This document shows, piece after piece, positions 8,707-60,285 of a stretch of 64,000 nucleotides of DNA. Location: assembly GCF_016595525.1 (NCBI RefSeq), contig NZ_JAENII010000009.1:124001-188000 (forward strand), written 5' to 3'. The position numbers and the translations under genes are program-made. Below the pieces are notes generated by a model. It saw only the letters and a program-made list of their open reading frames with translations, did no database searches and was not told the DNA's origin. The DNA comes from Haloferula rosea (GTDB taxonomy: Bacteria > Verrucomicrobiota > Verrucomicrobiia > Verrucomicrobiales > Akkermansiaceae). How positions within the stretch are numbered: the stretch's first letter is position 1; each line of letters begins with the position of its first letter.

Positions 8707-8724
8707 TCCGGGGGCGTGAGCCAT

Positions 8725-9900
8725 TCAGAGCCAGGGAACTTCAGGAGGCATCGTCACGAACTCTCCATCGATGCAGAGGGGGCGTCCGTCGAGGGTGACG
8801 CGTGAGCCTCCGGTCAGGCTGGCGATCAGGTCCCAGTGCAGGGCGCTCTTGTTGTGATTGCCGGTTTCGGGATAGCCGGCGCCGAAGGCAAGGTGGAAGG
8901 AACCACCCATCTTCTCGTCGAAGAGGATCTGGCCGGTCGGCTTGTTGATGGCACGATTCGTGCCGAATGCGACTTCGCCGATCCGGCGGGCACCATCGTC
9001 CTGATCGAGCATGGCAATGAGGAAGTCCTCACCCTCGTCGGCAGTCACTTCGGTGGCCCGGCCGCTCTCCATGACGATGCGGGCGTTGCGTACGGCATGG
9101 CCTTGATAGACGCATCGTTTGTCGAAGAACACGACGCCCTCGGCTCCTCCGTTGGGAGCATCGAGGTTGGGCCCGGAGTAGACTTCTCCGTCGGGGAAGT
9201 TCTTCCGCCCCGGGCTTGAAAGCCAACGCATCCCGCTGATGTCGACGGTGAGGTCGGTGCCGGCGGGAGTCTGGAAGTGCAAGGAGCGTCCGGTCATCAA
9301 CTCTTCGGCCAGTTGGCATTGCCAGCGATCGAGATCCTGCCAGAAGCCCACCGGGTCCTGCTGATTCAGCTGGCAAGCACGGATGACGAATTGCTGGTAG
9401 TCGCGCAGGCTCATGCCGGCGTCCTGCGCATAGGCATCGGTCGGGAACAGGGTGGTGGACCAGAGGAGTGGCGTGTGCTCTGCAGCCAACCCCGGGTCAT
9501 CCGCGGCGGCGGCCCGCTTGAAGAACAACTCGCGGCTCTTCTGGTTGGCCCGCGCGGCCCGCTGGGTAATGGCGGGGTCGAACTTGTCCATGGCCCGAAG
9601 GTTCGTGCTGGCACCGAGGTTGATGGTGGCATCCACGATTTCGGTCTCGAGCCGGGTGACGGGGTTTTCCCAATCCAGTTGATCGGGTTTGGCGAGCTCG
9701 AAGAAGGCTTCGTTGAGCGACTCGGGCCTGCAGTTCACGATGGGCATGCCTCCGGCTTGGAGCACCCGGCGATGGACGGCTTCCAACAAGGGGGTGGCGG
9801 CGGGCTGTGCGGTGATGCGCACGATCTTGCCCGGTCGAATGTCCGTGGCGTGACGGACGAGGACGTCGGCCCAGCGGTCGAGGTGAAGTTGGGTGAGCAT
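8725..9900 (-). CDS. M29-family (aminopeptidase T-like) metallo-aminopeptidase
   Basis: The product is a 391-residue cytosolic protein of normal M29 length. The frame is open further upstream, but ATG at 9900 fits the family's N-terminus and leaves 20 bases to the preceding gene. Recognisable are AEGVVFFDK, then the metal-site region with IGEVAFGTN (Glu), GGSFHLAFGAGYPE (His) and ALHWDLI (His/Asp). M29 enzymes release N-terminal amino acids using two metal ions. No signal peptide was seen. It follows the SGNH esterase gene closely on the same strand and is probably co-transcribed with it, although the functions have no obvious link. It converges on the larger esterase gene with only 18 bases between stops. 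Confidence 0.85.
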   Translation of the reverse strand: MLTQLHLDRWADVLVRHATDIRPGKIVRITAQPAATPLLEAVHRRVLQAGGMPIVNCRPESLNEAFFELAKPDQLDWENPVTRLETEIVDATINLGASTNLRAMDKFDPAITQRAARANQKSRELFFKRAAAADDPGLAAEHTPLLWSTTLFPTDAYAQDAGMSLRDYQQFVIRACQLNQQDPVGFWQDLDRWQCQLAEELMTGRSLHFQTPAGTDLTVDISGMRWLSSPGRKNFPDGEVYSGPNLDAPNGGAEGVVFFDKRCVYQGHAVRNARIVMESGRATEVTADEGEDFLIAMLDQDDGARRIGEVAFGTNRAINKPTGQILFDEKMGGSFHLAFGAGYPETGNHNKSALHWDLIASLTGGSRVTLDGRPLCIDGEFVTMPPEVPWL

Positions 9901-9920
9901 GAGGGGAGGTTGGAGGAGGC

Positions 9921-11414
9921 TCAGGGTTGGATCGGCCAGGCGTCGGTCCGGAAGGAAGATGCGGGAAGGCCTTCCTTGTTGGCAAAGTTCGGGGCGTCGG
10001 CATTTCCCCACGCGAAGCGGACGGCGACGGGAGTGCGGACCTTGTCGCTTGAGACGATGAGGGTGTCGCCATCGATCGTGGCTTCGGCCGGAACGAATTT
10101 GCGGTCCTTGCCGGCGATGGTGAAGTGGCTCAATGGCTCTCCGTCGGAGCTGGCCAGTCCGCTGCCGGTTCCGGTGCACTTGATCCGGATCGACCCTGCC
10201 TGGACTTCGTGGTCCTGATAGAGCGGGCCGGAGTCGACGAGGTCGGAGCGACCGTAGTCCCTCGCCAAGGCCATGAGGGCAAGCCGCTCGGCGACGGGCT
10301 TCTTCTTCTTCGGGTGGATGTTGGTGGCATCCCCGACATCCATCGTCACGGCCATGCCCGTTCTGGGAAGCGAGAGTGTCTTCATTTGTGCCTCCCTGAG
10401 GAAGGCGACGGGGATGGGCTCCTGTTTGTAGTGGAACGGGGCGATCTGGACGAAGTAGAACGGGAAGTCGCCGGCTCCCCAACGCGTGCGCCAGTCCTCG
10501 ATGAGGGCGGGGAAGAGGCGGGCGTATTGTGATGGGTTGCGGACGTTTGATTCTCCCTGATACCAGATGACTCCACGGAAGGCGTAGGGGATCAGGGGGT
10601 GGATCATGGAGTTGTAGAGAACGGCGGGACTCCGCTGGTTGAGGCCCTTTGGAACGCCCTTTTTACCCGCGTACAGGGCTCCTGACGACTCGGCGATGGC
10701 CGGGTAGCCGGCGAGCGTCTTGTCGAACTCGGGGAACTCGCGGCCGAGTTTCTCCGGGCTGATCCATGCTTCTGCAGAGGAGCCGCCCCAGTTGGTCGAG
10801 ATCAGACCGATCGGAACATCCAGTTCCTGGTGAAGTCGCGATCCGAAGAAGTAGGCCACGGCGCTGAAATTCAGTACGGTCTGCGGGGTGCATGCCGACC
10901 AGTTGGCGCGCATGTCGTCCTGAGTCTCAAGAGCGAGGACCTGAGGGACCTGGCAGAAGCGGATCCCGGGATGCTTCGCTTTCGCAACGTCATCCTTCCA
11001 GTGATCGAGCCCGAACCCCCTCATCTTCCACTGCATGTTCGACTGTCCCGAGCAGATCCAGACTTCCCCGATGAGGACATTCTTGAGCTGGATTTTCGAA
11101 GAGCCGGATGTGATTTGGATTTGGAACGGCCCTCCTGCGGAAGGGGTGTCGAGGGTGGTCTTCCAGCGGCCGTCATGGCCTGTGGTGGTGGTCGTTGTTT
11201 CCTGATTCCAGGAGGTGGTGATGGTGACTTCTGCCTTGGCCGTCGCGGTTCCCCAGATGGGCGCCTTGGCTTGTTGCTGCAGGACCATGTGGTCCGCGAA
11301 AATGCCGGCGACCTTCAAACTTGGTTTCGGGGCTTTCTTCTCTGGCTCGGCATGGCCGGTGAGCAGCAGGTTGGCGAGGACCCCGAGGACGAGGGAGAAG
11401 GTTCTGGTGCTCAT
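9921..11414 (-). CDS. Sialate O-acetylesterase-like SGNH hydrolase
   Basis: The product is 497 residues from ATG 11414, chosen because a signal peptide follows directly (MSTRTFSLVLGVLANLLLTG). Family blocks are GQSNM with the likely nucleophile Ser125, GGSSAEAW, WYQGESN and NIHPKKKKPVAERLAL carrying the catalytic His. It would be exported and deacetylate sugar O-acetyl esters. It has the usual family length and lacks the extra modules of the paralogue at 5353-8706. It is divergent from the GH2 gene across 254 bases, which suggests shared control of polysaccharide degradation. The substrate is unknown. Confidence 0.88.
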   Translation of the reverse strand: MSTRTFSLVLGVLANLLLTGHAEPEKKAPKPSLKVAGIFADHMVLQQQAKAPIWGTATAKAEVTITTSWNQETTTTTTGHDGRWKTTLDTPSAGGPFQIQITSGSSKIQLKNVLIGEVWICSGQSNMQWKMRGFGLDHWKDDVAKAKHPGIRFCQVPQVLALETQDDMRANWSACTPQTVLNFSAVAYFFGSRLHQELDVPIGLISTNWGGSSAEAWISPEKLGREFPEFDKTLAGYPAIAESSGALYAGKKGVPKGLNQRSPAVLYNSMIHPLIPYAFRGVIWYQGESNVRNPSQYARLFPALIEDWRTRWGAGDFPFYFVQIAPFHYKQEPIPVAFLREAQMKTLSLPRTGMAVTMDVGDATNIHPKKKKPVAERLALMALARDYGRSDLVDSGPLYQDHEVQAGSIRIKCTGTGSGLASSDGEPLSHFTIAGKDRKFVPAEATIDGDTLIVSSDKVRTPVAVRFAWGNADAPNFANKEGLPASSFRTDAWPIQP

Positions 11415-11668
11415 GGTTTTGATGATGGAATTCGCGGATTCAAGGGCCCCGGTAAAGGGAATCAGGGAAGGGGGAACAAGCAATATCGACCGTGATGCGC
11501 CTGAAATGAACTTATTGATGAATTCTATGATTTAGGTGTCCCGAATCCCTACGCATGACAACCACACCTATTGAACGAGAGGTGGAATCTGGCTGGTGTT
11601 TGACCCTACCGGGAGGCGAAGGAGAACTTCAGAAGGAAGCCCGTGGCAGGAGCCCATCACAGGAACTC

Positions 11669-14224
11669 ATGAGGAAGCATTTTCAACGTATCAAACCCGT
11701 GTGGGCCGGTCTGGTCATGACGTGTGTGGCCCTGTTCGGAGCTGACCTCATGGCGGCTGAGGCATCGGGGCGGGAACGTCTGAACTTCGACGAAGGCTGG
11801 CTCTTCTTGAAAGGGGACCCGAAGGGGGGGGCGCAACCGGGGTTTGATGACTCGGCCTGGCGTCGCGTGGACTTGCCGCACGACTGGAGCATCGAAGGGC
11901 CCTTCGACAAGGACAACCCGAGTGGGCCGTCCGGCGGATACCTGCCATGCGGGACGGGATGGTATCGCAAGGTGTTTCATGTTCCGGAGGGAGATGAGGG
12001 GCGAAGGATCTTCATCGATTTCGACGGCATCCACATGAATGGGGAGGTCTGGATCAATGGGCACCTGCTTGGCAAACGACCCTACGGCTACCTTGGCTTC
12101 GGTTTTGATCTCACCGAGCATTTGGATTTCGGAAAAGAGAATCTGCTCGCCGTGAGGGTCGACAACTCGCTGCAACCGGCATCCCGGTGGTACACGGGTT
12201 CGGGGATCTACCGGCACGTGTGGCTGACCTCCACGGATCTCTTGCGCGTGGAACGTTGGGGCACCCGGGTCACCACTCCGAAGGTGGCAAAGGAGCGTGC
12301 GGATGTGGTGATCCAAACGGCGGTGGTCAACGGACATGAAGAAGGTCGCGGGTTCGAGCTCGTGCAGACCGTGATCGACGCTGAAGGCACGGCGCGCGGA
12401 AGCGTCTCGTCGTCGGTCGAACTCAGTGCCGGCGAGCGGCGGGAGATCTCCCAGCAGCTGGTCCTGAAACATCCCCGTCTGTGGTCGCCGGATGCTCCGA
12501 ATCTCTATCAGGTTCGAACCGAGCTACGTCAGGGCGAGCGGCTGATCGACCGGTATGTCTCGCCGCTGGGAGTTCGTGAGGTGAAGTTTGATCCTGACCG
12601 TGGTGTGATTCTCAATGGAGAAGGCATCATCATGCGTGGGGTGTGCAACCACCACGATCTGGGCCCGCTGGGTGCGGCGTTGTGGGATGATGCGCTCGAG
12701 CGTCGTCTGCTGATGTTGAAGGAGATGGGCTGCAATGCCATCCGGACCGCCCACAATCCATCGAGCCCGGAGCTCCTGCACCTTTGTGACAAGCTTGGTT
12801 TCCTGGTGGTCAATGAAACCTTCGACGAGTGGCGCCGGGGATGGGCGTTCGAAGATGGCAAGCTGGTTTCCAGCAAGTCCAACAAGGGGAAGGCGAAGTA
12901 TGGCTACAACAGACTCTTCGATGATTGGGCCGAGCGTGATTTGACGGACCACATCAAGCGGGACCGGAACCACCCCTCGGTCATCATGTGGAGCGTCGGC
13001 AACGAGGTGCCTGAGGCGCAGAAGCACGGTGAGCTCGACACGCTGAAGTGGCTGAAGGCTTTGTGCCATGATCTGGATCCAAGTCGGCCGATGACGGTCG
13101 GGTGCAACTTCATCGCCGGGGCCAACGAGAGTGGGTTCGCGGGCCTGCTCGATCTGGTCGGCTACAATGGCGGGGGAGGGTCCTGCTTCCAGTATGAGGA
13201 GGACCACGAGCGCTTTCCCGAGCGCTTCATCTATGCCTCCGAGGTGCCGCATTCCCTGCAGACCCGCGGTGAATACCGGACCCGCTCACGCTATCGCGAG
13301 CCGGAGCATCAACCGGCCCACCTGACCGAGGAGGAGGTCTTTCCTGAAACCCATCCCCGCTACGAGTCGTCCTACGACAATGCCGGAGTGAGGATCAGTT
13401 CGCGGGATTCCTGGCGTCTGACAAGGGACCTTCCCTTCGTGGGTGGCGAGTTCCGATGGACGGGGTTCGACTACCTCGGTGAATCCGGCGGCTGGCCCAG
13501 GGTGATCGGGAACTTCGGGATCATCGACATTTGCAACTTTCCGAAGGATACCTACTACTTTTATCAGAGTCAGTGGACGGATGAACCGATGGTGCATCTT
13601 CTCCCGCACTGGACATGGCCGGGCAAGGAGGGCGTCGAGATCCCGGTCTGGTGCTATTCGAACTGTGACAGCGTAGAGCTGTTCCTCAATGGCGAGTCAC
13701 TGGGACGGCGTGAGTTCACCGCGGATCAGGACATGCACCTGCAATGGATGGTGCCTTATCAAGCCGGCGAACTGAAGGCGGTGGCGGTGAAGGACGGCAA
13801 GGAGGTCGCGGTGTCGCGCACCACCACGGCTGCGGAACCATCAAGAATGAATCTTTCGGCGGATCGATCGGTCCTGAGTTTCGAGGACCGTCAACTTTCC
13901 TACGTGACCATCCGCATTGAAGATGAACACGGGAACTTCGTGCCGAAGGCGGCGGTATCGGTCGGGTTGCAGGTCGAAGGGCCCGGTCGCCTGGTTGGGG
14001 TTGGCAGTGGGGATCCACTGAGCCATGAAGATTTCCAAGGCAGCACCGTGACTTCATTCAACGGGCTCGCGCTGGCGATCGTTGCTGCGACGGGGGAATC
14101 GGGGGAGATCATCCTGCGTGCCTCCGCTGAGGGAATGGCGACCGAACAGGTGAGGATTGCGGTGGAAGAGCCAAGCGCTCCGTCCGAGCTGTCAGCTGCC
14201 GATCGTGTGCTCGACAATCGATAG
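11669..14224 (+). CDS. Glycoside hydrolase family 2, beta-galactosidase-like
   Basis: The product is 851 residues from ATG 11669. A longer frame from 11555 exists, but the sequence after 11669 is a signal peptide (ending near LFGADLMAAEA), so the shorter start is preferred. Order: sugar-binding jelly roll (about 40-200, DLPHDWSIEGPF), Ig-like domain, TIM barrel (about 310-610), and C-terminal DUF4982/Ig-like domains. The acid/base sits in WSVGNEVPE (Glu446) and the nucleophile in VGGEFRWTGFDY (Glu594), both intact. It probably removes beta-linked galactose or a related sugar in the periplasm. Its last 33 bases overlap the end of the oppositely oriented kinase gene. Confidence 0.9.
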   Translation: MRKHFQRIKPVWAGLVMTCVALFGADLMAAEASGRERLNFDEGWLFLKGDPKGGAQPGFDDSAWRRVDLPHDWSIEGPFDKDNPSGPSGGYLPCGTGWYRKVFHVPEGDEGRRIFIDFDGIHMNGEVWINGHLLGKRPYGYLGFGFDLTEHLDFGKENLLAVRVDNSLQPASRWYTGSGIYRHVWLTSTDLLRVERWGTRVTTPKVAKERADVVIQTAVVNGHEEGRGFELVQTVIDAEGTARGSVSSSVELSAGERREISQQLVLKHPRLWSPDAPNLYQVRTELRQGERLIDRYVSPLGVREVKFDPDRGVILNGEGIIMRGVCNHHDLGPLGAALWDDALERRLLMLKEMGCNAIRTAHNPSSPELLHLCDKLGFLVVNETFDEWRRGWAFEDGKLVSSKSNKGKAKYGYNRLFDDWAERDLTDHIKRDRNHPSVIMWSVGNEVPEAQKHGELDTLKWLKALCHDLDPSRPMTVGCNFIAGANESGFAGLLDLVGYNGGGGSCFQYEEDHERFPERFIYASEVPHSLQTRGEYRTRSRYREPEHQPAHLTEEEVFPETHPRYESSYDNAGVRISSRDSWRLTRDLPFVGGEFRWTGFDYLGESGGWPRVIGNFGIIDICNFPKDTYYFYQSQWTDEPMVHLLPHWTWPGKEGVEIPVWCYSNCDSVELFLNGESLGRREFTADQDMHLQWMVPYQAGELKAVAVKDGKEVAVSRTTTAAEPSRMNLSADRSVLSFEDRQLSYVTIRIEDEHGNFVPKAAVSVGLQVEGPGRLVGVGSGDPLSHEDFQGSTVTSFNGLALAIVAATGESGEIILRASAEGMATEQVRIAVEEPSAPSELSAADRVLDNR

Positions 14225-45442: not shown

Positions 45443-45762
45443 AGGGCGCTGAACTCTAGGATCCGTGACTGGGAAGATCAACACTTTGCGGAGGAGGACG
45501 ATTCGCGGCTGGAAAATGGACGGCTGCAGCGGACGGAACGGATGATTTTAGCAGGAAAGTGGGGGTGTCGGGCCTCTTGCCGGGCTCCTGCAGCGGGATG
45601 GGGGGCGGCCTGGTCCAGGGTGCTCCTGCCTCATCGTCCGCTGGATGCCGAAAATCGGATGATTTCCCCTGTCGAAGTATCCGCGGAATGGCTAAGTGTG
45701 AGGAGTGGCGAGCATCTCCGGTGGAGCGGGCGATCGAATGCGCCGCATTTCCCATACAACCC
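45443..45762. other. 320-base divergent intergenic region between AraC-type regulator and aspartase fusion
   Basis: It should hold the promoters of both genes. Overlapping frames exist on both strands, but the translations look non-coding. I see no hairpin followed by a T run and no clear direct-repeat operator by eye. Confidence 0.45.
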
Positions 45763-47646
45763 ATGAAACTCACCCCGGAACGCATCAAGCGGTACGCCAA
45801 GGACATCGGCATCAGCGTCGAGGAACTTCAGTCATTCGTCGGCCTGGGCCGCCAGAAAGTCTACCAGGCCGGGGACTACCTTTTCCACGAATCGGCGCCG
45901 CGAAGGTGGTTCGGGATCGTCATGGAGGGAAAGGTCGACTTGCTCAGCGGACTATCGGGACGGCATGTCTCGGTCGGCTGTCTCGGCGAGGGTGCGATCA
46001 TCAATGAAAGCATCCTGATGGATGAACTGGCCCACAGCGTCTCCGGCGTGGCGGTGGGGGAGGTGAAAATCTGGACGATCGGTCGCGACGTGGTCATGGA
46101 CTTCCGCGAGGCCCACCCCGAAGTTTATTACCGGATGGTCAGCCGGGCGGCGCGGCGGATCGGCGCGCGCCTGCGTGAGACGACGTCGCGCTTCGCCAAC
46201 TCGGAGCAGATGCGGGTCGAGGTCACGGGCTTCCGTCGTGAGCACGATTCGCTGGGTGATCGGGAGATCTCCAACAGTCACTATTTCGGAATCCAGACCT
46301 CACGGGCGGTGGACAACTTCCCCTTCTCCGGGATCCGGCTGTCTCACTACCAGCATTTCGTCAATGCGCTCGCGCTGGTGAAGAAAGCGGCGGCGGTCGC
46401 CAATGCGGAACTGGGTGCGCTGGATCCGGAAATTTCGAAGGCCATCGTCCAAGCGTGCGACCGGATCATTGCGGGCGAATTCCACCAGCACTTCGTCGTC
46501 GACGTGGTGCAGGGAGGCGCGGGCACCTCGACGAACATGAATGCCAACGAGGTGATCGCGAATGTCGCCCTCGAGATCCTTGGTCATCGGAAGGGCGAGT
46601 ATGAGTTCGTCCACCCGAACGACCATGTGAACTGCTCGCAGTCGACCAACGATGCCTATCCCACGGCGGTGAAGTTGGCGGTGGTGGCGTCATTGAAGGA
46701 AACCCTGTCGGCCCTGAAGGTGTTGAGGAAGTCCTTCGAGGCGAAGGCGGTGGAATTCGATGATGTGATCAAGATGGGGCGGACGGAGAACCAGGATGCC
46801 GTGCCGATGACGCTGGGTCAGGAATTCTCCGCGTATGCCGTGATGGTTGGCGATGGCATCCGGCGCCTCGAACGCGCCAGCGGTGACCTCTGCGTGATCA
46901 ACATGGGCGCGACTGCCATCGGCACCGGCCTGAATAGCCCTCCCGGCTACGCCGAACTCTGCACCAAGCGCTTGTCCGAGTTCAGTGGGGTGGAGCTCGA
47001 ACTGGCGGGCAACTTGGTCGAGGCGACTCAGGATGCCGCCGACTTCGCCGTCATGAGCGGGGCGCTCAAGACCGCGGCGCTGCAAATTTCCAAGATCTGT
47101 AACGACCTCCGCTGGGCGTCGTCGGGCCCCCGCTGCGGGCTGAATGAAATCAACCTCCCACCGCTTCAGCCGGGGTCATCCATCATGCCGGGGAAGGTTA
47201 ATCCGGTGATGCCGGAGGTGGTCAACCAGATCTGTTACCAGATCATCGGATCCGACCTCACGGTGTCGATGGCGGCGGAGGCCAGCGAGTTCGAGCTGAA
47301 CATGGCCGAGCCCATCATCGCCTACAACCTGCTCAGCACGCTGATGCTGCTGAAGAATGCCGCCATCGCGCTGTCGACGCGCTGCATCGACGGCATCACC
47401 GCCAACCGCGAGCGTTGCGCCGACTACGTGAAGAACTCCATCGGGATCGTCACCGCGCTGAATCCGGTGCTCGGATACGAGCGGTCGGCATCGATTGCCA
47501 AGGAAGCCCTGAAGACCGGTCGCAGCGTCTATGACCTGGCGATGGAGAAGGGCTGGATGACGAAAGAGCAACTCGATGATCTCCTGCAGCCGCAAAAGAT
47601 GGCCAATCCCTTGATGCCCGATGGAGTGACGGAGCCCGACGAGTGA
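45763..47646 (+). CDS. aspA: Aspartate ammonia-lyase with N-terminal cyclic-nucleotide-binding-like domain
   Basis: The product is 627 residues from ATG 45763, about 155 longer than ordinary aspartases. Residues about 28-128 read as a Crp-type beta-barrel (YQAGDYLFHESA, GIVMEGKVDLLSG, GEGAIINESILM). From about 155 the fumarase/aspartase superfamily follows: SSxxNDAYPT-like CSQSTNDAYPTAVK, NMGATAIGTGLNSPPGY, and the signature GSSIMPGKVNPVMPE with catalytic Ser472/473. It deaminates aspartate to fumarate and ammonia in the cytosol. The extra domain suggests allosteric control by a nucleotide, but the fully conserved cAMP phosphate-binding signature was not evident, so ligand binding is inference. 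It is divergent from the PocR/AraC regulator. Confidence 0.88.
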   Translation: MKLTPERIKRYAKDIGISVEELQSFVGLGRQKVYQAGDYLFHESAPRRWFGIVMEGKVDLLSGLSGRHVSVGCLGEGAIINESILMDELAHSVSGVAVGEVKIWTIGRDVVMDFREAHPEVYYRMVSRAARRIGARLRETTSRFANSEQMRVEVTGFRREHDSLGDREISNSHYFGIQTSRAVDNFPFSGIRLSHYQHFVNALALVKKAAAVANAELGALDPEISKAIVQACDRIIAGEFHQHFVVDVVQGGAGTSTNMNANEVIANVALEILGHRKGEYEFVHPNDHVNCSQSTNDAYPTAVKLAVVASLKETLSALKVLRKSFEAKAVEFDDVIKMGRTENQDAVPMTLGQEFSAYAVMVGDGIRRLERASGDLCVINMGATAIGTGLNSPPGYAELCTKRLSEFSGVELELAGNLVEATQDAADFAVMSGALKTAALQISKICNDLRWASSGPRCGLNEINLPPLQPGSSIMPGKVNPVMPEVVNQICYQIIGSDLTVSMAAEASEFELNMAEPIIAYNLLSTLMLLKNAAIALSTRCIDGITANRERCADYVKNSIGIVTALNPVLGYERSASIAKEALKTGRSVYDLAMEKGWMTKEQLDDLLQPQKMANPLMPDGVTEPDE

Positions 47647-49584: not shown

Positions 49585-50133
49585 CGGGGCGAAAGAATGA
49601 GAACAAGCGACCCGACCCACATGGAGGTTCGCCGATTCTCCTTGTCGCATTGAATCACCAAAAGCCGATCACAACAAGACTGCTGATCGTGGTGTCATCA
49701 CCTTTCATTGAAGTCTAGGACGCGCTACTCGTCTCCAAACCGGATCGCAACCACCCCACTGTCCCAAGTGGAAAGGTAAACCCAGCCCTGCCGAATCGAG
49801 TCGCCCAAGTTTCATCAATCGGGGTGAAAAGCACGTAGAAGGAGAATGCGAGTGCTCAAATCACAAGCGCTAGCGAAAACTGGACGACTCTCGTTGTGAG
49901 GTATCGAAGCCAAGGTCTCTCCATTTCGTAGCGAACAGTATTGGTTCGTAGATGATCCGGACCGAATTTCTGGATCGTCCTTGTTAGGAGATCGAGGGTG
50001 GACTTGTTGATTTGGCAGGGGATTTCAAGCCGTCGAACTGGTTTAACAGGTCGTTGGAGCGGCGGCACCGAGTGGGGGTGGTCGGGGAGTGAGATGCTGG
50101 CTTTTGTCGATGACTTGAGCGGGGGATGAAGAG

Positions 50134-50252
50134 GGATGAAGGATGAAGGATGAAGGATGAAGGATGAGGGATGAGGGATGAGGGATGAGGGATGAGGGAT
50201 GAGGGATGAGGGATGAGGGATGAGGGATGAGGGATGAGGGATGAGGGATGAG
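50134..50252 (+). repeat. Tandem array of 17 copies of a 7-bp unit
   Basis: Four copies of GGATGAA are followed by thirteen copies of GGATGAG with no interruption (119 bases). The strand is strongly purine-rich. Slippage should make copy number variable between strains. Confidence 0.95.
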
Positions 50253-50319
50253 GGCAGTTGCGTGGTCCAGCGCAAGGGTGGTGCGAGGGCGGGTGAACTG
50301 CAGCGGCTTGGAAAGCCGC

Positions 50320-50375
50320 GCTCCCTAATCGCAGGCATCGCTTGGCCCCTGAACCCTCAGTCCCTGAACCCTTGG
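50320..50375 (+). repeat. Direct repeat copy A (56 bp)
   Basis: Matches copy B at 50548-50603 at about 51 of 56 positions by direct comparison, with no gaps. The shared core is CATCGCTTGGCCCCTGA. Confidence 0.9.
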
Positions 50376-52384: not shown

Positions 52385-53674
52385 ATGCTTGTTTCCTGCC
52401 CCCATTGTTCCACTGGTCTTGACGTCGCTCCCGAGCACGCTGGCCAGACCCTCCAGTGCCCGGCCTGTCAGGGTCGGCTGACGCTTTCCAGTGAAGATCT
52501 GGCGCAGGAGTCTGCGGCGAGCAACCACCCGGAACGGGAGGGCTGGGCGGAGAAGGATCATGCGAACCCGAACTTCATCAAGGGGTTGCTCATCGGGATC
52601 GGCATCACGGTTGCCTTCCTCGCCTTGATGTTTCCCTTCAAGAGCACGCGGGTGGGGGCGATCTTCCTTGAGCGTGGCTGGGTGAACTTCGCCGAGACCT
52701 TCCTGTTTTTCTGGGGGCTGACGATCCTGGGGATGAAGTGGAAGATGAACCAGCGGCAGGAGCGCGCGGCCCTGTTGGATCTATTTCCGCAACGGCTTGG
52801 TCGCCAGATCGACCGGACAACGGTCTCGGGCTTCATCGACAACATCTATCAGGTGCCGTTGTCCCTGCGGGACAGTCTGATCGTGAACCGCATCCGGAAG
52901 GCGCTCGAGTTGTTCGAAGCGCGTCCGAACAACACCGAGGTGGCGACCTTCCTGAGCACGCAGTCCGAGTTGGATGCGAACCGGTCGATGGGTTCCTACT
53001 CCTTGCTGAAGGTGTTCCTGTGGGCAATTCCGATTCTGGGCTTCATCGGCACGGTGATGGGGCTTTCCACGGCGGTGGGCTCGCTGGCGGTGGGGGACAA
53101 CAGCGACCCGGAAGCACTGATGGCTTCGGTGAACAACCTGACGGGCGGGCTTGGGCTGGCCTTCGACACGACCTTGCTGGGGCTGATCCTGAGCATTCTG
53201 ATGAGCTTCCCGATGGCGGCGGTTCAGAAGAAGGAGGACGAGACGCTGACGATCATCGATGCCTTCTGCAACGAGAAGGTCCTGCCGAAGCTCAACGACA
53301 GCAAGCATGCGGGGACGGATGAACTTCTGGAGAAGGCGGAGAGCATTCCGCAGCTCGTGAAATCGCTGGCTCAGGCGCATGAGACGTTCCTGGTGAATCT
53401 CAATGAGAGCACGATCCAGCTGAAGGAGAGCGGACAGGCGCTGCGGAGCGGGCTCGACGAGCATCGCAAGACGGTGGAAACGAGCTTCACGGATGCGGTG
53501 AAGAAGCTGACCGACACGAGCAGTGAGATTTTCATCCGCTCGGATCAGGAATTGAACCGGACTTTCGAGAAGATTGCGACGGGCATCGATGTGATGAACC
53601 AGTCCCTGCGTGATCTTGGAGAGAAGCAGATTCCGAATGACGCGAAGCGCAAGCGCGGGTTGTTCCGTCGTTGA
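52385..53674 (+). CDS. MotA/TolQ/ExbB-like proton channel with N-terminal zinc ribbon and helical tail
   Basis: The product is 429 residues from ATG 52385 (MLVSCPHCSTGL). A zinc ribbon comes first, with Cys5, Cys8, Cys25 and Cys28. Four hydrophobic segments follow. The last two are the conserved channel core, FLWAIPILGFIGTVMGLS and GLGLAFDTTLLGLILSIL, with the channel Thr residues. The C-terminal ~130 residues are a long amphipathic helical tail. TolQ/ExbB proteins form pentameric inner-membrane channels that use proton flow to drive a partner. Ordinary TolQ lacks both the zinc ribbon and so long a tail. The next two genes, 3 and 4 bases away, encode TolR/ExbD-like partners. Confidence 0.87.
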   Translation: MLVSCPHCSTGLDVAPEHAGQTLQCPACQGRLTLSSEDLAQESAASNHPEREGWAEKDHANPNFIKGLLIGIGITVAFLALMFPFKSTRVGAIFLERGWVNFAETFLFFWGLTILGMKWKMNQRQERAALLDLFPQRLGRQIDRTTVSGFIDNIYQVPLSLRDSLIVNRIRKALELFEARPNNTEVATFLSTQSELDANRSMGSYSLLKVFLWAIPILGFIGTVMGLSTAVGSLAVGDNSDPEALMASVNNLTGGLGLAFDTTLLGLILSILMSFPMAAVQKKEDETLTIIDAFCNEKVLPKLNDSKHAGTDELLEKAESIPQLVKSLAQAHETFLVNLNESTIQLKESGQALRSGLDEHRKTVETSFTDAVKKLTDTSSEIFIRSDQELNRTFEKIATGIDVMNQSLRDLGEKQIPNDAKRKRGLFRR

Positions 53675-53677
53675 GTC

Positions 53678-54490
53678 ATGCCACGCCGCCGATCCAGTTC
53701 CGAGGGTGGGGTTTCGCTATTCCCCTTCATGAGCATCCTCGCATGTCTCATCGGCATCCTGACGCTGCTGATCAGCGTGACGATGCAGGTGAAGAACATG
53801 GACCGGAAGGGACAGACGGAGGAGGAGCGGGCGCGGGCGGTGGAGAACCGGGATCTGAAGCGTGAGGCGAAGGAGCTCGAGGAGCAAATCAAGAAGCTGG
53901 AGGAGCAGATCAAGCGGGAGCGGTCGACGGTGGCGGAGCTCGAGAAACTCAAGGACCGTCAGGTCGTGCTGAAGGAAGAGCTAGCTGATCTGCGGAAGGC
54001 GGAGGATGAAACAAAGTCGGATGCGGAGCTGCAGAAGATCGCGGAGAACCTGAGGAAGGAGATCGTGGCCCTGAAAAAGGAACGTCCGCCGCTCAACAAG
54101 CAGCTCGAGGATCTGCGCAAGCAGCTGAAGGAGCGCAAGGAGGCACCCGAGCCACCGAAGTCGGTCCAGGTGCAGCCGGGGGGGGTGGGTTTGAACAAGG
54201 CGCGGAACATCTTCTTCGTGGAAGCGAACTCGACGGGCATCGTGCTGATGGAGGATGGCAAGGAGGGGAAACGGATTTCCAAAGGGGCGATCCCGAGCAA
54301 CGGTGACTACAAGCGATTCCTCGAAAACGTGAAGAAGACGCGGGATTCGATGGTCCTCTTCCTGATCCGGCGAAGCGGCAACGAGTCGTATCTCTGGGCG
54401 GCCTCGGAAGCGGAGAACAAGTTCAATCTGACCACGGGCAAGTTGCCGATCCCGAACGACGGCAAGATCGACCTATCCCTTTTCGACTGA
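53678..54490 (+). CDS. TolR/ExbD-like coiled-coil subunit lacking the membrane Asp
   Basis: The product is 270 residues. A basic N-terminus (MPRRRSSSEGG) precedes a single membrane span beginning VSLFPFMSILACLIGILTL. Aligned with the ExbD motif PFID, this reads PFMS, so the proton-carrying Asp position is Ser19. A long coiled coil follows (about 45-165), then a periplasmic ExbD-like domain (NIFFVEANSTGIVL, SMVLFLIRRSG). It shares its N-terminal pattern (RSS.E.GVSL) with the next gene, so the two are paralogues. It probably lies around the TolQ-like channel with a structural role. Confidence 0.8.
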   Translation: MPRRRSSSEGGVSLFPFMSILACLIGILTLLISVTMQVKNMDRKGQTEEERARAVENRDLKREAKELEEQIKKLEEQIKRERSTVAELEKLKDRQVVLKEELADLRKAEDETKSDAELQKIAENLRKEIVALKKERPPLNKQLEDLRKQLKERKEAPEPPKSVQVQPGGVGLNKARNIFFVEANSTGIVLMEDGKEGKRISKGAIPSNGDYKRFLENVKKTRDSMVLFLIRRSGNESYLWAASEAENKFNLTTGKLPIPNDGKIDLSLFD

Positions 54491-54494
54491 GTTC

Positions 54495-55601
54495 ATGGCA
54501 CGCAAGCGATCATCGGATGAAGCCGGAGTGAGTCTCGACTCACTCATGGATGCGCTGACCAATGTGGTCGCGGTGCTGATCCTGGTGCTGATCCTGGTGC
54601 AGGCGGACGTGACCCAGAAGGTCGAGGAATTCCTCGACAACCTGAAGCCGGCGACGCCCGAGGAGGTGCAGCAATCGAAGGAGCAGTTGGCGAAGGTCCG
54701 CGAGGAGCTCGAACGGAAGCAGGCGCTTCTCCAACAGGAGGCGCCGACGCCGGCGGCGATCGAGGAGGAGAAGCGGTCGATCGCCCTGTTGGAAAAGGAG
54801 CTGAAGGACAACAGCGAACTGCTGGCGGATCTGGATGAGCTCAAGAGGCTGGAGAGGAAACTGCGATTGGAGCGCGATGTGGAACAGGAGAAGACGTCGA
54901 AGATCGAAGAGGAGATCGCGCGCCTGCTCGCCCAGCTCGATGCGACGCCGGAGAAGGTGGCGAAGCCGGACATTGTGACCATTCCCAGCAGTCGGCCGAT
55001 CCCGGCGACGGCGAAGATCTACTACGCGATCGTCCAACGGGGCCGGGTGCATCTGATTGATCCGTTCACGCCTGTCGAATTGTTTGAGGACGAGTTCCGG
55101 CAGGAGAAGCGGCACTGGCTGCTGGAGCGTGTGAAGCGTCAGGGTGCCGATCGGTACATCTACGACGGCCGGAAGATCGAGGCCCACTTCAAGGACTTCG
55201 ATTTCAAGAACCGCCGGAACCAGCGGGTGACGTTGGTGGCGCCGCCGACCGGCACGCGGATGCGGATCGAAATTCGCCCCGATCTGAAAGAGGGGGGGAC
55301 AACGACCGAGCAACTCGCCGAGCCCAACTCGCAGTTTGCCGCCAGTGTGAAGGCGCTATCGAGGATCCGTGGCGCGGTGCTCATGTTCTGGGTGCACCCG
55401 GATTCCTTCCCGACCTACCTCAAGGCCCGCCCGCTGGCCGATGCGGTGAATCTCCCGGCAGGTTGGGAGATCCGTTTCAACCAGATGTATGCGGTGACGC
55501 TGAGTGATGTGGAGATCCGCCGGCAGAAGGAACCTCCACCCGCCAAGCCGGACCCCAATCCGCAACCGAAGCCGCCCCGGCTCGGGCCGAAGCTGGACTG
55601 A
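54495..55601 (+). CDS. TolR/ExbD-like coiled-coil subunit with intact membrane Asp
   Basis: The product is 368 residues. The N-terminus is MARKRSSDEAGVSL, then DSLMDALTNVVAVLILVLIL. Asp19 falls where ExbD has its essential Asp, and Asp15 is one turn earlier. A coiled coil (about 45-155) and a periplasmic domain (AKIYYAIVQRGRVHLIDPF, VLMFWVHPDSFPTYL) follow, ending in a Pro-rich tail. It should be the proton-coupled partner of the TolQ-like channel. No OmpA-type peptidoglycan-binding domain is visible, unlike MotB or ZorB. Confidence 0.82.
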   Translation: MARKRSSDEAGVSLDSLMDALTNVVAVLILVLILVQADVTQKVEEFLDNLKPATPEEVQQSKEQLAKVREELERKQALLQQEAPTPAAIEEEKRSIALLEKELKDNSELLADLDELKRLERKLRLERDVEQEKTSKIEEEIARLLAQLDATPEKVAKPDIVTIPSSRPIPATAKIYYAIVQRGRVHLIDPFTPVELFEDEFRQEKRHWLLERVKRQGADRYIYDGRKIEAHFKDFDFKNRRNQRVTLVAPPTGTRMRIEIRPDLKEGGTTTEQLAEPNSQFAASVKALSRIRGAVLMFWVHPDSFPTYLKARPLADAVNLPAGWEIRFNQMYAVTLSDVEIRRQKEPPPAKPDPNPQPKPPRLGPKLD

Positions 55602-55772: not shown

Positions 55773-57149
55773 TTAGTCAGGACGCTTCAGGACCCAGCCG
55801 ACGACATCGGATTGGTAGTCGGTGTAGGTTTTCCATGGGCCGCGGAGCCAGAGTAGGACGGAGTAGCCTTCGCCCGCCACGATGATGGGCCTCAGGTTGG
55901 GATGGGTGGATTTCGACGTCAGTGGTTTCCAGGTGATGGTGGAGCGATCATCGTCGGTCCCGACCGTGGCCGAGAAGATCTCGTGGGTGCCGCCGAGGTC
56001 CTTGCCGGTGGATGGGTCGACATCGGTCGAGATCACTGCGTGGCTGGGATGGGTGGGATCCAGCGCGATCAGCCCGGTGTAGCTGCTTTCCCGTGGATAG
56101 AGGCAGGTGCCGGCGTAGGCGACCTCGCGATCCACCCATGTCTTGCCGTTCCAGTGGGCCATGCGGTAGCGGTGGTCGTCGTTGGTCAGATAAAGCGAGT
56201 AACCGATGTGCGGTCGGGAGGACTCATCGACGGCGATCGAGCTGGTCCATGCGCTGCGCTCGGCGCTGAGGGAATGGTCACCTGGTCCCTTGTTGCCACC
56301 GCCCTTGAAGATCAGGTCGGCTTCGGATGGGGTGAGGGGGCCATCCTCCAGCGCCTTGATGCGGGTGCCGTCGACACGGAAGAATGCTCCGTCCCGGAAG
56401 TCCGCGTAGTAGATGCTGTTGCCGAAGTTCCGTGGGTGGGCGTCGGTGAATGAGATGCCGACCGTGTTTTCATCGCGCTGCACGTAGCGCGGGTAGGGGC
56501 GGTTGACGCCATCGACCTCGTCGGAGATGAGGTGGTGGGGGTCACCCCAGGTCTCGCCATGATCGGACGAGCTGATGACGGACGGGTTGAAGCCGATGCC
56601 GCGGAAGAAGTTGTAGAGTTTCCCTTCCGACTTCGAGGTGTAGAGGTTCATGTAGGTGACGTTGGCCGCCTTCGGGTAGTCGTGGACGAACTTCTGGGGT
56701 TCGCCCCAACTGAGGAAATCATCGGGCGAGGAGATCCGGTAGTGGTGGACGCGGTCTCGGTTGTGCTTGGCATAGACGGCAAGGATGCTGCCGTCGGGAC
56801 GGGCGTGGAGGGCGGGCACGTTGTGATCGTCCTTTTCGAATCCGGCGTGAAGGACGGTGGTGCCGAGGTCTTTCCCGGCCTCAAGGTCGTAAACGCTCAC
56901 TTTGACGTCGCCGGTGGTCCCACTCAGGCCGCCGACGATGAGTTTCCCCTGATGGATGATGGCCCGGGGGTCCTGAAACCAGCACCATCCGGCATCTTCC
57001 ATGAAGGTGGTGGGTTCGCGGGTCGAGGCTTCCGCCTGGGCGGGCTGGACCAAGCAGGTCAGCGCCAGCGCCGCCAGGGAGCCGATGGCTAGAATGGAAG
57101 GGCGGGAAGCTTTGGGGTGTCGGGCGCGTGAAAATCGATGGTTGGCCAT
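55773..57149 (-). CDS. Secreted BNR-repeat (BNR_4-like) protein
   Basis: The product is 458 residues from ATG 57149, with a signal peptide ending [26 protein letters not shown] near the mature N-terminus and repeated [13 protein letters not shown]-type Asp-box motifs indicate a beta-propeller of the BNR_4 type. Such propellers occur in sialidase-like and some polysaccharide lyase families, including ones acting on ulvan. No sialidase FRIP motif was seen, so neuraminidase activity is unlikely. It is probably part of the extracellular polysaccharide-degrading set. It is divergent from floA. Confidence 0.8.
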
Positions 57150-57280
57150 GGGTGTTTCAGGTTCGCGGAGGATACGGGGTGGGGCGCTCCGGCTTGTCAT
57201 CCGGCATGGGGTTTCCGGCTCGTGGAAATTCATCGAATTTGTGGACTAGCCGCGATGGGGAAGAGGGATATAGTGGCGTC

Positions 57281-58324
57281 GTGAACACACTTGCAGCCAT
57301 TGAATGGTCCTTCATTTTTCTCATCGTAGGACTCATCATCCTTGTCGTCGCGGGCTTGGTCATCGCGATGTTCTTCAAGACCTGGTTGAGGGCAAAGCTG
57401 TCCAATGCGCCGGTGTCCTGGGGGAGCTTGATCGGGATGCTTCTGCGGAAGGTTCCGTTTGGACGCATCGTTGATGCGAGGATCACCGCAGTGAAGGCAG
57501 GCCTGCCGCTCACCGCCGAGCAGTTGGAAGCCCACTACCTCGCGGGGGGTGATGTGGAGAATGTCGTGCTGGCGCTGGTGGCCGCCGACAAGGCGCGCCT
57601 GGAGCTGCCATTCGACCGGGCATGTGCGATCGACCTTGCGGTGAAGGGCACGACCAAGACGGTGCTCGAAGCGGTGCGCACCTCGATCAATCCGAAGGTG
57701 ATCGAGTGCCCGAACCCGGAAACGTCCGGAGTGAACAAGATCACTGCGGTGGCCAAGGACGGCATTGCGGTGAATGTGCGCGCCCGGGTGACCGTCCGGA
57801 CCGCTCTCGATTCGTTCATCGGCGGTGCCACGGAAGAGACCGTCATCGCGCGGGTGGGCGAAGGCATCGTGACATCGGTGGGTTCCGCCGAGAGCTACAA
57901 GGCGGTCCTTGAGAATCCGGACAGCATTTCCAAGCTGGTGCTCAGCAAGGGCGTCGATTCGTCGACGGCCTTTGAGATCCTTTCGATCGACATCGCCGAT
58001 GTGGACGTGGCCGACAACGTGGGAGCCCGACTTCAGACCGAACAGGCCGAGGCCGACAAGCGGGTGGCTCAGGCCAAGGCGGAAATGCGTCGGGCCGCGG
58101 CGGTCGCTGTGGAGCAGGAGATGTCCGCCCGGACGCAGGAAATGCGTGCGAAGGTGGTGGAGGCGGAAGCCCAGGTGCCTCAGGCGATTGCGGAGGCCTT
58201 CCGTGCCGGCAATCTGGGTGTGATGGATTACACCAAGTACAAGAACATCATGGCCGATACCGACATGCGTTCCTCGATCGCCACGGACGAGGACGGCAGC
58301 GGTCCCGAGAACCAATCCCTCTGA
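57281..58324 (+). CDS. floA: Flotillin-like protein FloA
   Basis: The product is 347 residues from GTG 57281, chosen because the next in-frame ATG is inside the membrane segment and a GAGGGA precedes the GTG. The N-terminal hydrophobic hairpin ([20 protein letters not shown]) is followed by an SPFH-like domain ([34 protein letters not shown]) and an Ala/Glu-rich coiled coil ([18 protein letters not shown]). FloA organises membrane microdomains. It is the first gene of a tight operon with a small membrane protein and NfeD, the usual partner. Confidence 0.93.
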
Positions 58325-58843
58325 ATGATTCCGCTGCTGGCCAACCTGGACATTCCGGCCGAGGTCATCTCGGTCCTGTTCCTGCTGCTCATCTCGCTCG
58401 CGAACTGGATCAAGAACCGGGCGCTGCAGAAGAAGCAGGAAGAGGAGCTCGAGGAGGAGGATCCGATGCGGGAGATCATCTGGCGGCGCCAGATTGGTGA
58501 ACCGGTCGATGAGGATGTCTTCGAACCGGTCCGGGACCCGGTGCCGCCACCGATGCCCTCCCGTTCGATCCGGGTCGATCCACGACCTCCGGTGGTCACC
58601 GTAGCACCTGCTCCGGTGAAGCCGCCAGCGATGAAGGTGCGGCAGGTTTCCGAGAAGGAGGCCGCCCTGGCGACGAAGTTCGAGGATTCGCTGGGTCGGA
58701 AGCCGAGAAGACGGACGAGTCATCGATCAGAGGTCGACAAGTTGCTGCGCTCACCGTCGGCCGCGAAGAACGCCATCCTGCTGACCGAGATCCTCGGCCC
58801 GCCGCTGGCCCTGAAATCCCCGTCCGAACGATCATCCGCATGA
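58325..58843 (+). CDS. Small single-span membrane protein between floA and nfeD
   Basis: The product is 172 residues starting directly after the floA stop (TGAATG). An N-terminal span (VISVLFLLLISLANWI) precedes a Glu/Lys-rich helix (KKQEEELEEEDPM), a Pro-rich stretch and a C-terminal helix. It sits in the same operon, with its stop overlapping the nfeD ATG by 4 bases. No family was recognised; it is probably an accessory of the flotillin/NfeD complex. Confidence 0.75.
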   Translation: MIPLLANLDIPAEVISVLFLLLISLANWIKNRALQKKQEEELEEEDPMREIIWRRQIGEPVDEDVFEPVRDPVPPPMPSRSIRVDPRPPVVTVAPAPVKPPAMKVRQVSEKEAALATKFEDSLGRKPRRRTSHRSEVDKLLRSPSAAKNAILLTEILGPPLALKSPSERSSA

Positions 58844-60285
58844 TCACGCGTGTCTTACTTCTGTTTCTGTTCAGCCTGTTCGCCCTCCACGCCGAGGAGG
58901 TTCCGGAGAAGCGGCTGATGGGGAAATCCGATGAGGTCAGTCTGGCGGACAAGGTGGTGGTGATTCCCATTGGTCAGAAGGACCTGATCAACAAGCAGGC
59001 CTTCCGGTTCTGGAACCGGACGATCGACCGGGCGGTGGAGGACAAGGCGAAGGCCATCGTCCTGGAAATCGATACGCCGGGTGGACTGGCCTTCGATACC
59101 CGCGACATCGTCACCGATGAGTTTTCCAAGCCCGAACTGCCGCTGATCAGCTGGGTGAAACGGGAAGCCCTCAGCGCGGGGGCTCTGATCGCGTTTTCGA
59201 CCGACCGGATCTACATGGCCGAGGGAACGAGGATCGGGTCCGCCGGGCTCATCAACGGGACCGGGCAGGAGATCGAGAAGGTGACCCGGGCGAAGCTGGA
59301 GAGTGCCTTCGAGGCATCCTTCCGACCGGTGGTGAAGAAGAAGGGGCATCGCCTCGATGTGCTTCAGGCGATGATGTTCGTGGATGAGGACAACGAGCGG
59401 ACCTTCGGGTCGGTGACGGTCCGCAAGGGTGGCCTGCTCAATCTAACGGCCAGCGAGGCCGTCGAAATCGTGGATGGCAAGCCGCTGCTTGCCGCGGGGA
59501 TCGCGAACAGCCTGGAGGAGGTGCTGAAGGTGGAGGAGCTGGATGATTTTGAAGTCATCCGTCCCAAGCCGACCGGCTTCGAGTCCTTTGCATGGTGGGT
59601 CGCGGCCTTCTCGCCGCTGTTGATTGCGCTTGGCCTGGGCGCGGCCTATCTGGAGCTCAAGGCGCCCGGTTTCGGGGTGTTCGGCTTCGTGTCTCTGGGC
59701 ATTTTTGCCGTGTTCTTCTTTGGCAACAGCGTGGCGGGGAATCTCGCGGGTTACGAACTGATGGCGGTGTTCCTGTTGGGGGTGGCGCTGGTGCTGCTTG
59801 AGATCTTCGTGCTTCCCGGGATGGTCGCGGGGGTGGTGGGCGCTCTGCTCATGATGGGCTCGCTGTGGTTCGCGATGGCGGACAAGGTGGACTTCGAGCG
59901 CTTGACCGATGGCGTGGAGGATGCGCCGACGGTGACCGATGTGCTGTTCAAGCCGGGTGCCTATCTGGTGTATGGCATGCTCGGTGGGCTGGGCATTCTC
60001 CTGCTCTTCATGCGCTATCTGCCAAGTATACCCCTGTTCCGTGGCCTGGTGGCGGAAGAGGAACTTCCGTCAGGCTCCGGGGACGACGGCCATGTGCCGG
60101 AAAGCTACGTTGGTGCCACGGCGGTGGTGGTTTCCGACCTGCGTCCGACCGGGACCATCATGATCGATGGGGTGCGAAAGGATGCGATTTGCGATGTGGG
60201 CCTGATCGAGAAGGGCGCTGAAGTGAAGATCGTGAAGGAAGGCATGACGTATCACGTCGAGCCGATCGACTCCGCGCGCTCCTGA
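58840..60285 (+). CDS. NfeD-type membrane ClpP-class serine protease
   Basis: The product is 481 residues. A signal peptide (ending FALHA) leads to a ClpP-like domain (about 40-220) with EIDTPGG, the nucleophile Ser112 in REALSAGALIAF, and a probable Lys147 (QEIEKVTRAK) from a Ser-Lys dyad. Four to five membrane spans follow (about 250-390), then a C-terminal NfeD OB-fold (ATAVVVSDLRPTGTIMIDG, DVGLIEKGAEVKIVK). This is the long, proteolytic form of NfeD, which cuts membrane-associated proteins such as stomatin or flotillin partners. It overlaps the small gene upstream and converges on the hypothetical gene. Confidence 0.92.
   Translation: MITRVLLLFLFSLFALHAEEVPEKRLMGKSDEVSLADKVVVIPIGQKDLINKQAFRFWNRTIDRAVEDKAKAIVLEIDTPGGLAFDTRDIVTDEFSKPELPLISWVKREALSAGALIAFSTDRIYMAEGTRIGSAGLINGTGQEIEKVTRAKLESAFEASFRPVVKKKGHRLDVLQAMMFVDEDNERTFGSVTVRKGGLLNLTASEAVEIVDGKPLLAAGIANSLEEVLKVEELDDFEVIRPKPTGFESFAWWVAAFSPLLIALGLGAAYLELKAPGFGVFGFVSLGIFAVFFFGNSVAGNLAGYELMAVFLLGVALVLLEIFVLPGMVAGVVGALLMMGSLWFAMADKVDFERLTDGVEDAPTVTDVLFKPGAYLVYGMLGGLGILLLFMRYLPSIPLFRGLVAEEELPSGSGDDGHVPESYVGATAVVVSDLRPTGTIMIDGVRKDAICDVGLIEKGAEVKIVKEGMTYHVEPIDSARS

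Follow-up and report, generated by a model that had tools for sequence, protein, structure and literature searches.

Matched pore residues in a conserved operon of one zinc-ribbon TolQ-like gene and two TolR-like genes from Haloferula rosea

A 64,000-nucleotide stretch of the Haloferula rosea genome (assembly GCF_016595525.1, contig NZ_JAENII010000009.1, positions 124,001 to 188,000; hereafter the window) contains three consecutive genes, here called A, B, and C, that encode a TolQ-like subunit with an N-terminal zinc ribbon and two different TolR-like partners. The trio is conserved, occurs with either of two matched sets of pore residues, and in the Verrucomicrobiales shows different histories for its pore segments and its soluble segments. 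We consider it probable (roughly 0.6) that the operon encodes an envelope-spanning, ion-driven motor of 5:1:1 composition with a heterodimeric axle, the pore of which is a co-adapted set drawn from all three genes. Combinations of one tolQ-like and two tolR-like genes are already known from AglRQS and from operons of the Planctomycetes-Verrucomicrobia-Chlamydiae (PVC) bacteria, and this trio is a variant of them.

A first-pass annotation of the window had claimed a three-gene operon at 52385-55601, and the genes are indeed found there in the order A-B-C on one strand, separated by gaps of 3 bases (A-B) and 4 bases (B-C). The features to which the text refers are the following.

52385..53674, plus strand: gene A, TolQ/ExbB/MotA-family subunit of 429 amino acids, with a PF01618 match
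52385..52486, plus strand: zinc ribbon of A, residues 1-34 (CPHC-x16-CPAC at residues 5-28); soluble module, follows host lineage
52541..53293, plus strand: membrane/pore module of A, approximately residues 53-303, type-specific; approximate borders from hydropathy and sliding-window type affinity
53051..53053, plus strand: Thr223 of A, aligned with PomA Thr158, kept in 114/114 sequences
53168..53173, plus strand: Thr262-Thr263 of A, aligned with PomA Thr185-Thr186; Thr262 is Ala in the D-type, Thr263 is kept in 114/114
53294..53671, plus strand: helical C-terminal tail of A, residues 304-429 (about 125 residues after Leu303); soluble module, follows host lineage
53678..54490, plus strand: gene B, TolR-like axle subunit of 270 amino acids; model with predicted local distance difference test (pLDDT) 78.9 and predicted template-modelling score (pTM) 0.40
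53678..53812, plus strand: N-terminus and transmembrane (TM) helix of B, residues 1-45; pore module, one type change on its own tree
53732..53734, plus strand: Ser19 of B (the ExbD Asp25 site), Ser in 82/109 and Asp in 27/109 B genes beside A
53819..54133, plus strand: predicted coiled coil of B, residues 48-152, from the structure model
54206..54448, plus strand: periplasmic domain of B, residues 177-257, TolR/ExbD-like in the model
54495..55601, plus strand: gene C, second TolR-like axle subunit, 368 amino acids; model pLDDT 80.6, pTM 0.53
54495..54629, plus strand: N-terminus and TM helix of C, residues 1-45; pore module
54537..54539, plus strand: Asp15 of C; among the 102 readable adjacent operons 79 have Asp (78 S-type plus L170) and 23 have Val (all D-type)
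54549..54551, plus strand: Asp19 of C (the ExbD Asp25 site), Asp in 104/104 rows read
54657..54944, plus strand: predicted coiled coil of C, residues 55-150, from the structure model
55014..55517, plus strand: periplasmic domain of C, residues 174-341, TolR ranked first in VIA-align

Counts refer to 114 distinct A sequences, obtained from 125 loci (numbered L or G) by removal of 11 duplicates; A, B, and C are adjacent on one strand in 103 of these 114, and the remainder are mostly contig ends. In the 109 loci where B stands beside A, its residue 19 is Ser 82 times and Asp 27 times, and the residue goes together with others in A and C. The S-type pore combines Thr262 of A, Ser19 of B, and Asp15 of C (78 adjacent operons); the D-type pore combines Ala262, Asp19, and Val15 (23 adjacent operons). 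The three sites thus match in 101 of 102 readable adjacent operons. An initial count of 102/103 had taken B and C anywhere in the locus; L115 dropped out once A, B, and C had to be adjacent on the same strand, and L071 is unreadable at C15. Among the 27 loci with Asp19 in B, an adjacent C could be read in 24, 23 of which have Val15. Loci with an unlinked or inverted C also conform, G026 being D-type with Val15 and L148, L159, and L115 S-type with Asp. When types are set by A262, 11 positions separate them almost cleanly: 97, 98, 104, and 262 in A; 13, 15, and 19 in B; and 13, 15, 16, and 36 in C. In the S-type, C thus bears two acids, Asp15 and Asp19, spaced by one helical turn; in the D-type, each axle helix bears one acid.

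These counts bear on the first-pass annotation, which had placed Ser19 of B and Asp19 of C at the site of ExbD Asp25, proposed that only one partner carries the acid, and called for a survey of whether a zinc-ribbon TolQ always travels with an Asp/Ser pair. The pairing and the single acid-bearing partner stand for the S-type, that is, for most loci (Ser19 in 82/109), and fall for the D-type, in which B has Asp19 (27/109). That annotation would have given up its split-role idea if homologues mostly kept Asp in both subunits; site 19 is Ser in 82 of the 109 B genes and Asp in all 104 C rows read. The second conserved acid of C, Asp15, had escaped it. Neither the two types nor the pore mosaic described below is mentioned in the available portions of four related papers (PMC12204202, PMC3169522, PMC10374538, PMC9389320).

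Trees of the Verrucomicrobiales operons separate the history of the pore from that of the soluble parts. In a tree of A from which column 262 was left out, the D-type forms one clade with the S-type locus L057 inside it; L057 shows affinity to S-type relatives in its membrane parts and to D-type relatives in its soluble parts, and for this reason we split the operon into pore segments (the membrane region of A and the N-termini of B and C with their TM helices) and soluble segments (the tail of A and the remainder of B and C). Module trees were built from 36 of the clade's 47 rows, 20 D-type and 16 S-type; left out were L059, L073, L118, L128, L129, L131, and L135, in which B or C is missing, partial, or unlinked, together with L119 and L138 (both of which do have B), L067 (a near copy of L066), and L142. 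The pore tree shows 1 change of type, with support 100, and the soluble tree 8, of which 7 are forced by starred branches. Segment by segment, each of the three pore trees has 1 change, and the three soluble trees have 7-8, the forced ones numbering 2, 3, and 5.

Soluble trees recover three lineages, here X, Y, and Z, as supported groups. Approximately unbiased (AU) tests on 31 of the 36 loci (without L114, L124, L125, L123, and L141) rejected the D-type as one clade on the soluble data (p 3.2e-5, log-likelihood gap 766) and rejected X, Y, and Z on the pore data (p 7e-4, 2e-39, and 3.5e-7, respectively). In sliding windows along X and Y, affinity flips from lineage to type and back to lineage near the module borders of all three genes, and the ribbon groups with the soluble parts. 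Between S and D pores of X and Y, about 40% of 357 positions differ; same-type pores are 78-82% identical across these lineages.

The two types occupy the same chromosomal place. Seven loci of X and Y were compared; they include both types, lie downstream of ribBA, and in several cases have nusB and ftsY close by. The Z loci of either type lie downstream of plsY and gpsA (the identities of these five genes come from a Pfam check of one locus each). A single B was found in 10/10 genomes checked of the family. Trees of RibBA and NusB also mix S and D, with 4 changes over 13 loci for RibBA and 3 over 10 loci for NusB. The S-type locus L061 and the D-type locus L130 are 98% identical in RibBA, 76% in the soluble segments, and 60% in the pore, and in four same-type, same-lineage pairs that were compared the pore is 94-97% identical.

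Either of two processes explains this mosaic: related operons have repeatedly exchanged segments while selection kept their pores matched, or a dimorphism has been maintained for a long time and its soluble parts recombine freely. Since synonymous sites are saturated, the two are inseparable here. One specific version, which we hold tentatively and at somewhat less than even odds, is a trans-species dimorphism: one locus would carry two ancient pore alleles that place their acids differently, perhaps with another coupling ion, and congeners would swap the three membrane segments and keep the soluble ones. The mosaic suggests that mismatched pores work poorly, and the persistence of the soluble parts with the host lineage suggests lineage-specific partners encoded elsewhere.

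We infer an ion-driven 5:2 motor from the PF01618 family of A, the alignment of its Thr223 and Thr263 with PomA T158 and T186, and the TolR-like partners. Five copies of A would surround one B helix and one C helix, and ions would travel along the Thr223/Thr263 ring, carried by the axle acids; in the S-type operon of the window both acids, Asp15 and Asp19, would come from C and none from B, and in the D-type each of B and C would give one acid, the two lying at the same level. Movement would be passed into the periplasm by the coiled coils of B and C and by their TolR-like domains, and the ribbons and tails of A might build a cytosolic ring that docks or gates. Among related species the S and D sets substitute for each other at one locus as three gene segments, and the ribbon, tail, and periplasmic domains go with the lineage. 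Because the axle of 5:2 motors is normally a homodimer, it is hard to test how its helices share ion transport; an apparent natural heterodimer with acids in two alternative placements would allow each helix to be changed separately. The mosaic likewise offers a way, provided by nature, to learn which residues have to be matched among the three proteins (the 11 type-specific positions); it also suggests that the soluble parts have lineage-specific partners, for which co-variation could serve as a search tool.

Several observations weigh against this model or limit it. The one exception among readable adjacent operons, L170 (Candidatus Anammoximicrobium), has Asp19 in B together with Asp15 in C and Thr262 in A. 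As the pore tree shows a single change of type, the residue coupling on its own amounts to one event, and the mosaic is the independent support. Asp15 is perhaps a helix cap and not an ion carrier, the modelled helix of C starting, with low confidence, at residue 14. The trio can exist without forming one operon, C being away from B in G026, L148, and L159. Types cluster to some extent in the soluble tree also, in which the 8 changes compare with 12.2 in shuffles, 3/500 of which were as low. X, Y, and Z were named after the trees had been seen, and the trees are quick ones, the gaps being large nonetheless. The contrast is smaller in lineage Z (same-type pores 68-72% identical, S against D 61%), and the saturation of synonymous sites leaves the exchange undatable.

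Convergence of pore residues in place of segment exchange is very improbable: synonymous sites carry no signal in either direction, and convergence at as many sites as distinguish S from D pores in X and Y, against the close identity of same-type pores, would be hard to achieve. That B and C instead form separate motors, A5B2 and A5C2, with the Ser-type B motor non-conducting or regulatory, would be natural for two homologous subunits, and the same choice between homodimer and heterodimer is left open for AglRQ/S in the part of a review that was available (PMC9389320). An S-type A5B2 motor would have no acid at the site, however, and the exchange of A, B, and C pore segments as a set fits one shared pore better than two; we therefore favour the B:C heterodimer and infer 5:1:1 over A5B2 plus A5C2, the separate motors seeming unlikely. 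A difference in coupling ion is about equally doubtful. It would make the S-type (Thr223-Thr262-Thr263) Na+-driven and the D-type (Thr-Ala-Thr) H+-driven, and relatives would switch the pore set to suit their salt or energy supply. PomA T158, T185, and T186, which align with residues 223, 262, and 263 of A, are described as conserved in all Na+-driven stators in the available part of PMC10374538, and TolQ and ExbB chains have Ala at the 262 site, as the D-type does, in 5/5 alignments among the matches listed. The Na+ signature is weakened, however, by the ordinary ExbB proteins of the same genome, since six of six ExbB-type motifs read there also have two Thr. In H+-driven MotAB, according to the same portion of that paper, the residues at T158 and T185 are both Ala, but the D-type retains Thr223; a second Na+ feature described there is an Ala or polar residue (taken as PomA 190), which is Leu in A (PMC10374538).

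Least probable of all, to the point that we give it hardly any weight, is a Zorya-like defence motor, although the first-pass annotation had allowed for a defence function. A does share with ZorA a MotA-type pore with a helical cytosolic tail; it has a PADLOC ZorA2 match (E 1e-10, 39.3 bits), and its profile finds ZorA chains in the PDB, a similarity that comes in part from the coiled coil. Its NCBIfam ZorA score, however, is 25.1 bits against a cut-off of 100, and no ZorB is among the matches listed for its partners (25 of 33 families for B, 12 for C). Nor does a further gene travel with the trio: in a survey of 1626 neighbouring open reading frames (ORFs) at 125 loci nothing beyond A, B, and C (106, 91, and 89 loci) recurs widely, and the next clusters reach at most 19 loci each and show variable distance, antisense orientation, or local synteny. 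The operon stands beside housekeeping genes in the lineages examined. We accordingly rejected the defence reading, on the low PADLOC and NCBIfam ZorA scores and the want of a recurrent partner gene, and gave up deriving a function from gene neighbours.

The trio has a patchy distribution. A has a match in 66 of 97 genomes, comprising the window's own and its relatives, and exceeds 200 bits in 45, among them 6 of 18 genomes of the window's own genus; C exceeds 150 bits in 11 of 288 sampled genomes of the phylum, the own genome included. The best 80 of 533 relatives in a scan of named genomes were mainly Verrucomicrobiota, with Planctomycetota, Lentisphaerae, and Kiritimatiellae also represented. 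Among 44 loci taken from the genomes of relatives, 43 have B after A and 41 have C after B, which bears out the reading of a conserved trio in which a TolQ-like subunit has two different partners of the TolR kind. Of the three loci without a following C, two are contig ends and one has C on another contig. The exceptions to adjacency among the distinct loci are L115, with B and C inverted, and G026, L148, and L159, with C elsewhere in the genome.

Some of these loci have peculiarities of their own. L059 (~7039-8196) and L171 (6440-8322), of G026, hold B and C on separate contigs, each beside a similar ORF; the ORF beside C matches an ISL3 transposase zinc finger weakly, at a sub-threshold 22.3 bits, and the C of G026 combines a periplasmic domain that resembles S-type relatives with a D-type TM helix. 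L148 (10484-11278) and L159 (8613-9407) are planctomycete loci with A and B. B and C adjoin A at L115 (3-3113) but are encoded on the other strand, which reflects either an inverted operon or an assembly error. L071 (3690-6940, minus strand) is a degraded or misassembled copy in which the first half of the ribbon lies in another frame and C has a stop codon just after Asp15. L140 and L163 (DDSV01 contigs, UBA2381) belong to one genome with two ribbon operons, one D-type and one distant S-type.

Subunit A matches MotA_ExbB (PF01618) at residues 170-286 with 42.1 bits against a cut-off of 22.9; all 45 sequences of the A alignment match the family at E 0.01, and Thr223 and Thr263 correspond to the pore threonines that this family places on two core TM helices. 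Hydropathy gives clear membrane helices at 67-85, 207-225, and 262-280, and judging from the sequence there may be a further one near 99-119, in which case the ribbon would face the cytosol, a placement that we take to be as in MotA. Both the CxxC-x16-CxxC ribbon and the helical tail of ~130 residues claimed for A by the first-pass annotation are present. Ribbon loss in close relatives would have counted against its idea, and of the 114 distinct A sequences 111 have the first CxxC and 113 the second; the motifs are missed in L096 and L115, which lie at contig edges, and in the frameshifted L071, so the ribbon is seen wherever the start is readable. No paper on a ribbon-bearing TolQ or ExbB was found in the open-licence literature. 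When the profiles of A and C were compared with solved structures, the matches were ZorA-type, LysW-ribbon, apolipoprotein, and other coiled-coil chains and included no ExbD or TolR. A ends in a basic motif, KRGLFRR (window 53648-53671; consensus KKGWFSR), and C in Leu-Asp or similar (window 55593-55598), the last Asp being present in at least 90% of 41 sequences; both ends look like docking motifs.

B and C, which begin with MPRRRSSSEGGVSLFPFMS and MARKRSSDEAGVSLDSLMD, respectively, each have a single N-terminal membrane helix, a long coiled coil, and a periplasmic domain. Their profiles align from residue 1, with Ser19 of B over Asp19 of C in gapless register, as the first-pass annotation had it (probability 98.9, E 1.4e-17, a score partly raised by the coiled coil), and by this alignment the two are homologous. 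ExbD/TolR (PF02472) was not matched at E 0.01 by window B, window C, or any of 41 C sequences, and is not among the matches listed (25 of 34 families) for 43 B sequences. The hallmark TM Asp of ExbD/TolR is held by C in 104/104 rows, but window B has Ser, like 82/109 loci. The models hint that both periplasmic domains are probably TolR-like. For the B domain TolR 5by4 comes first both in Foldseek (E 0.028, probability 0.97) and in VIA-align (Z 7.5, root-mean-square deviation [rmsd] 3.0, 85 residues aligned), the next two VIA-align ranks being ExbD at Z 6.1 and 5.9, level with unrelated folds. For the C domain 5by4 is again first in VIA-align (Z 8.1, rmsd 3.8, 93 aligned), followed by a ribosomal protein at Z 6.4, and no TolR is among the best 50 in Foldseek.

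Among known systems, the E. coli pairs TolQ-TolR and ExbB-ExbD share with the trio a PF01618 pore, a TolR-like periplasmic fold (in the models), and, with the D-type, Ala at the 262 site; they have a homodimeric axle, no ribbon, and the partners TolA and TonB. Closer in gene content is the gliding motor AglR-AglQ-AglS of Myxococcus xanthus, in which one MotA/TolQ-type and two MotB/TolR-type genes are clustered (PMC3169522, PMC9389320, as far as available). AglQ and AglS are, however, PF02472 members, whereas window B and C have no such match; both are said in the available part of a review to carry Asp (PMC9389320), unlike window B with its Ser19, so that the gene trio of AglRQS is shared and the Asp in both TolR-type subunits is not. 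A ribbon such as that of A is not mentioned for AglRQS in the same portions of these papers (PMC3169522, PMC9389320). In PVC bacteria, a force-transducer operon with a von Willebrand factor A (vWA) gene also joins a tolQ-like gene to two different tolR-like genes, but its tetratricopeptide repeat (TPR) and vWA genes do not recur beside the ribbon trio, and the available part of its description does not mention a ribbon, Ser/Asp types, or a mosaic (PMC12204202). TPR and vWA genes do not adjoin the trio in the window, where the flanking genes encode an alpha-L-fucosidase, a BNR_4 protein, and a FloA/NfeD pair.

A sister operon, seen at L083 (~6150-12550, minus strand), likewise at L084-L089, and at L174 (4911-12958), also has a TolQ-like gene and two TolR-like genes. 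Its TolQ-like A' is 31-34% identical to A in L083-L089 but lacks the ribbon, and most copies, unlike the trio, are preceded by a gene of ~1000 amino acids and one of ~215-550 amino acids; the start of the latter protein presumably resembles GYF_2 domains. The TolR-like motifs are FQD and DLLLDT, with Asp in 6 of 7 B' motifs read (Ser in L085) and both acids in 6/6 C' motifs.

The immediate neighbours of the trio in the window include no Tol or Ton partner, as the first-pass annotation had stated. Elsewhere the host genome has eight more MotA_ExbB regions and ordinary ExbD genes; with these separate ordinary ExbB/ExbD genes in the host, the trio is an extra system. Just downstream (window 57128-60285) a FloA flotillin-like gene, a small gene, and an NfeD gene stand in a row. 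Upstream, an ORF at 49856-50338 with repeated SLIPHPS units reflects a short tandem DNA repeat ahead of the fucosidase gene, and the gene at 45559-47643 encodes a lyase/fumarase-type protein with an N-terminal cyclic-nucleotide-binding domain, a pairing that is, to our knowledge, unusual.

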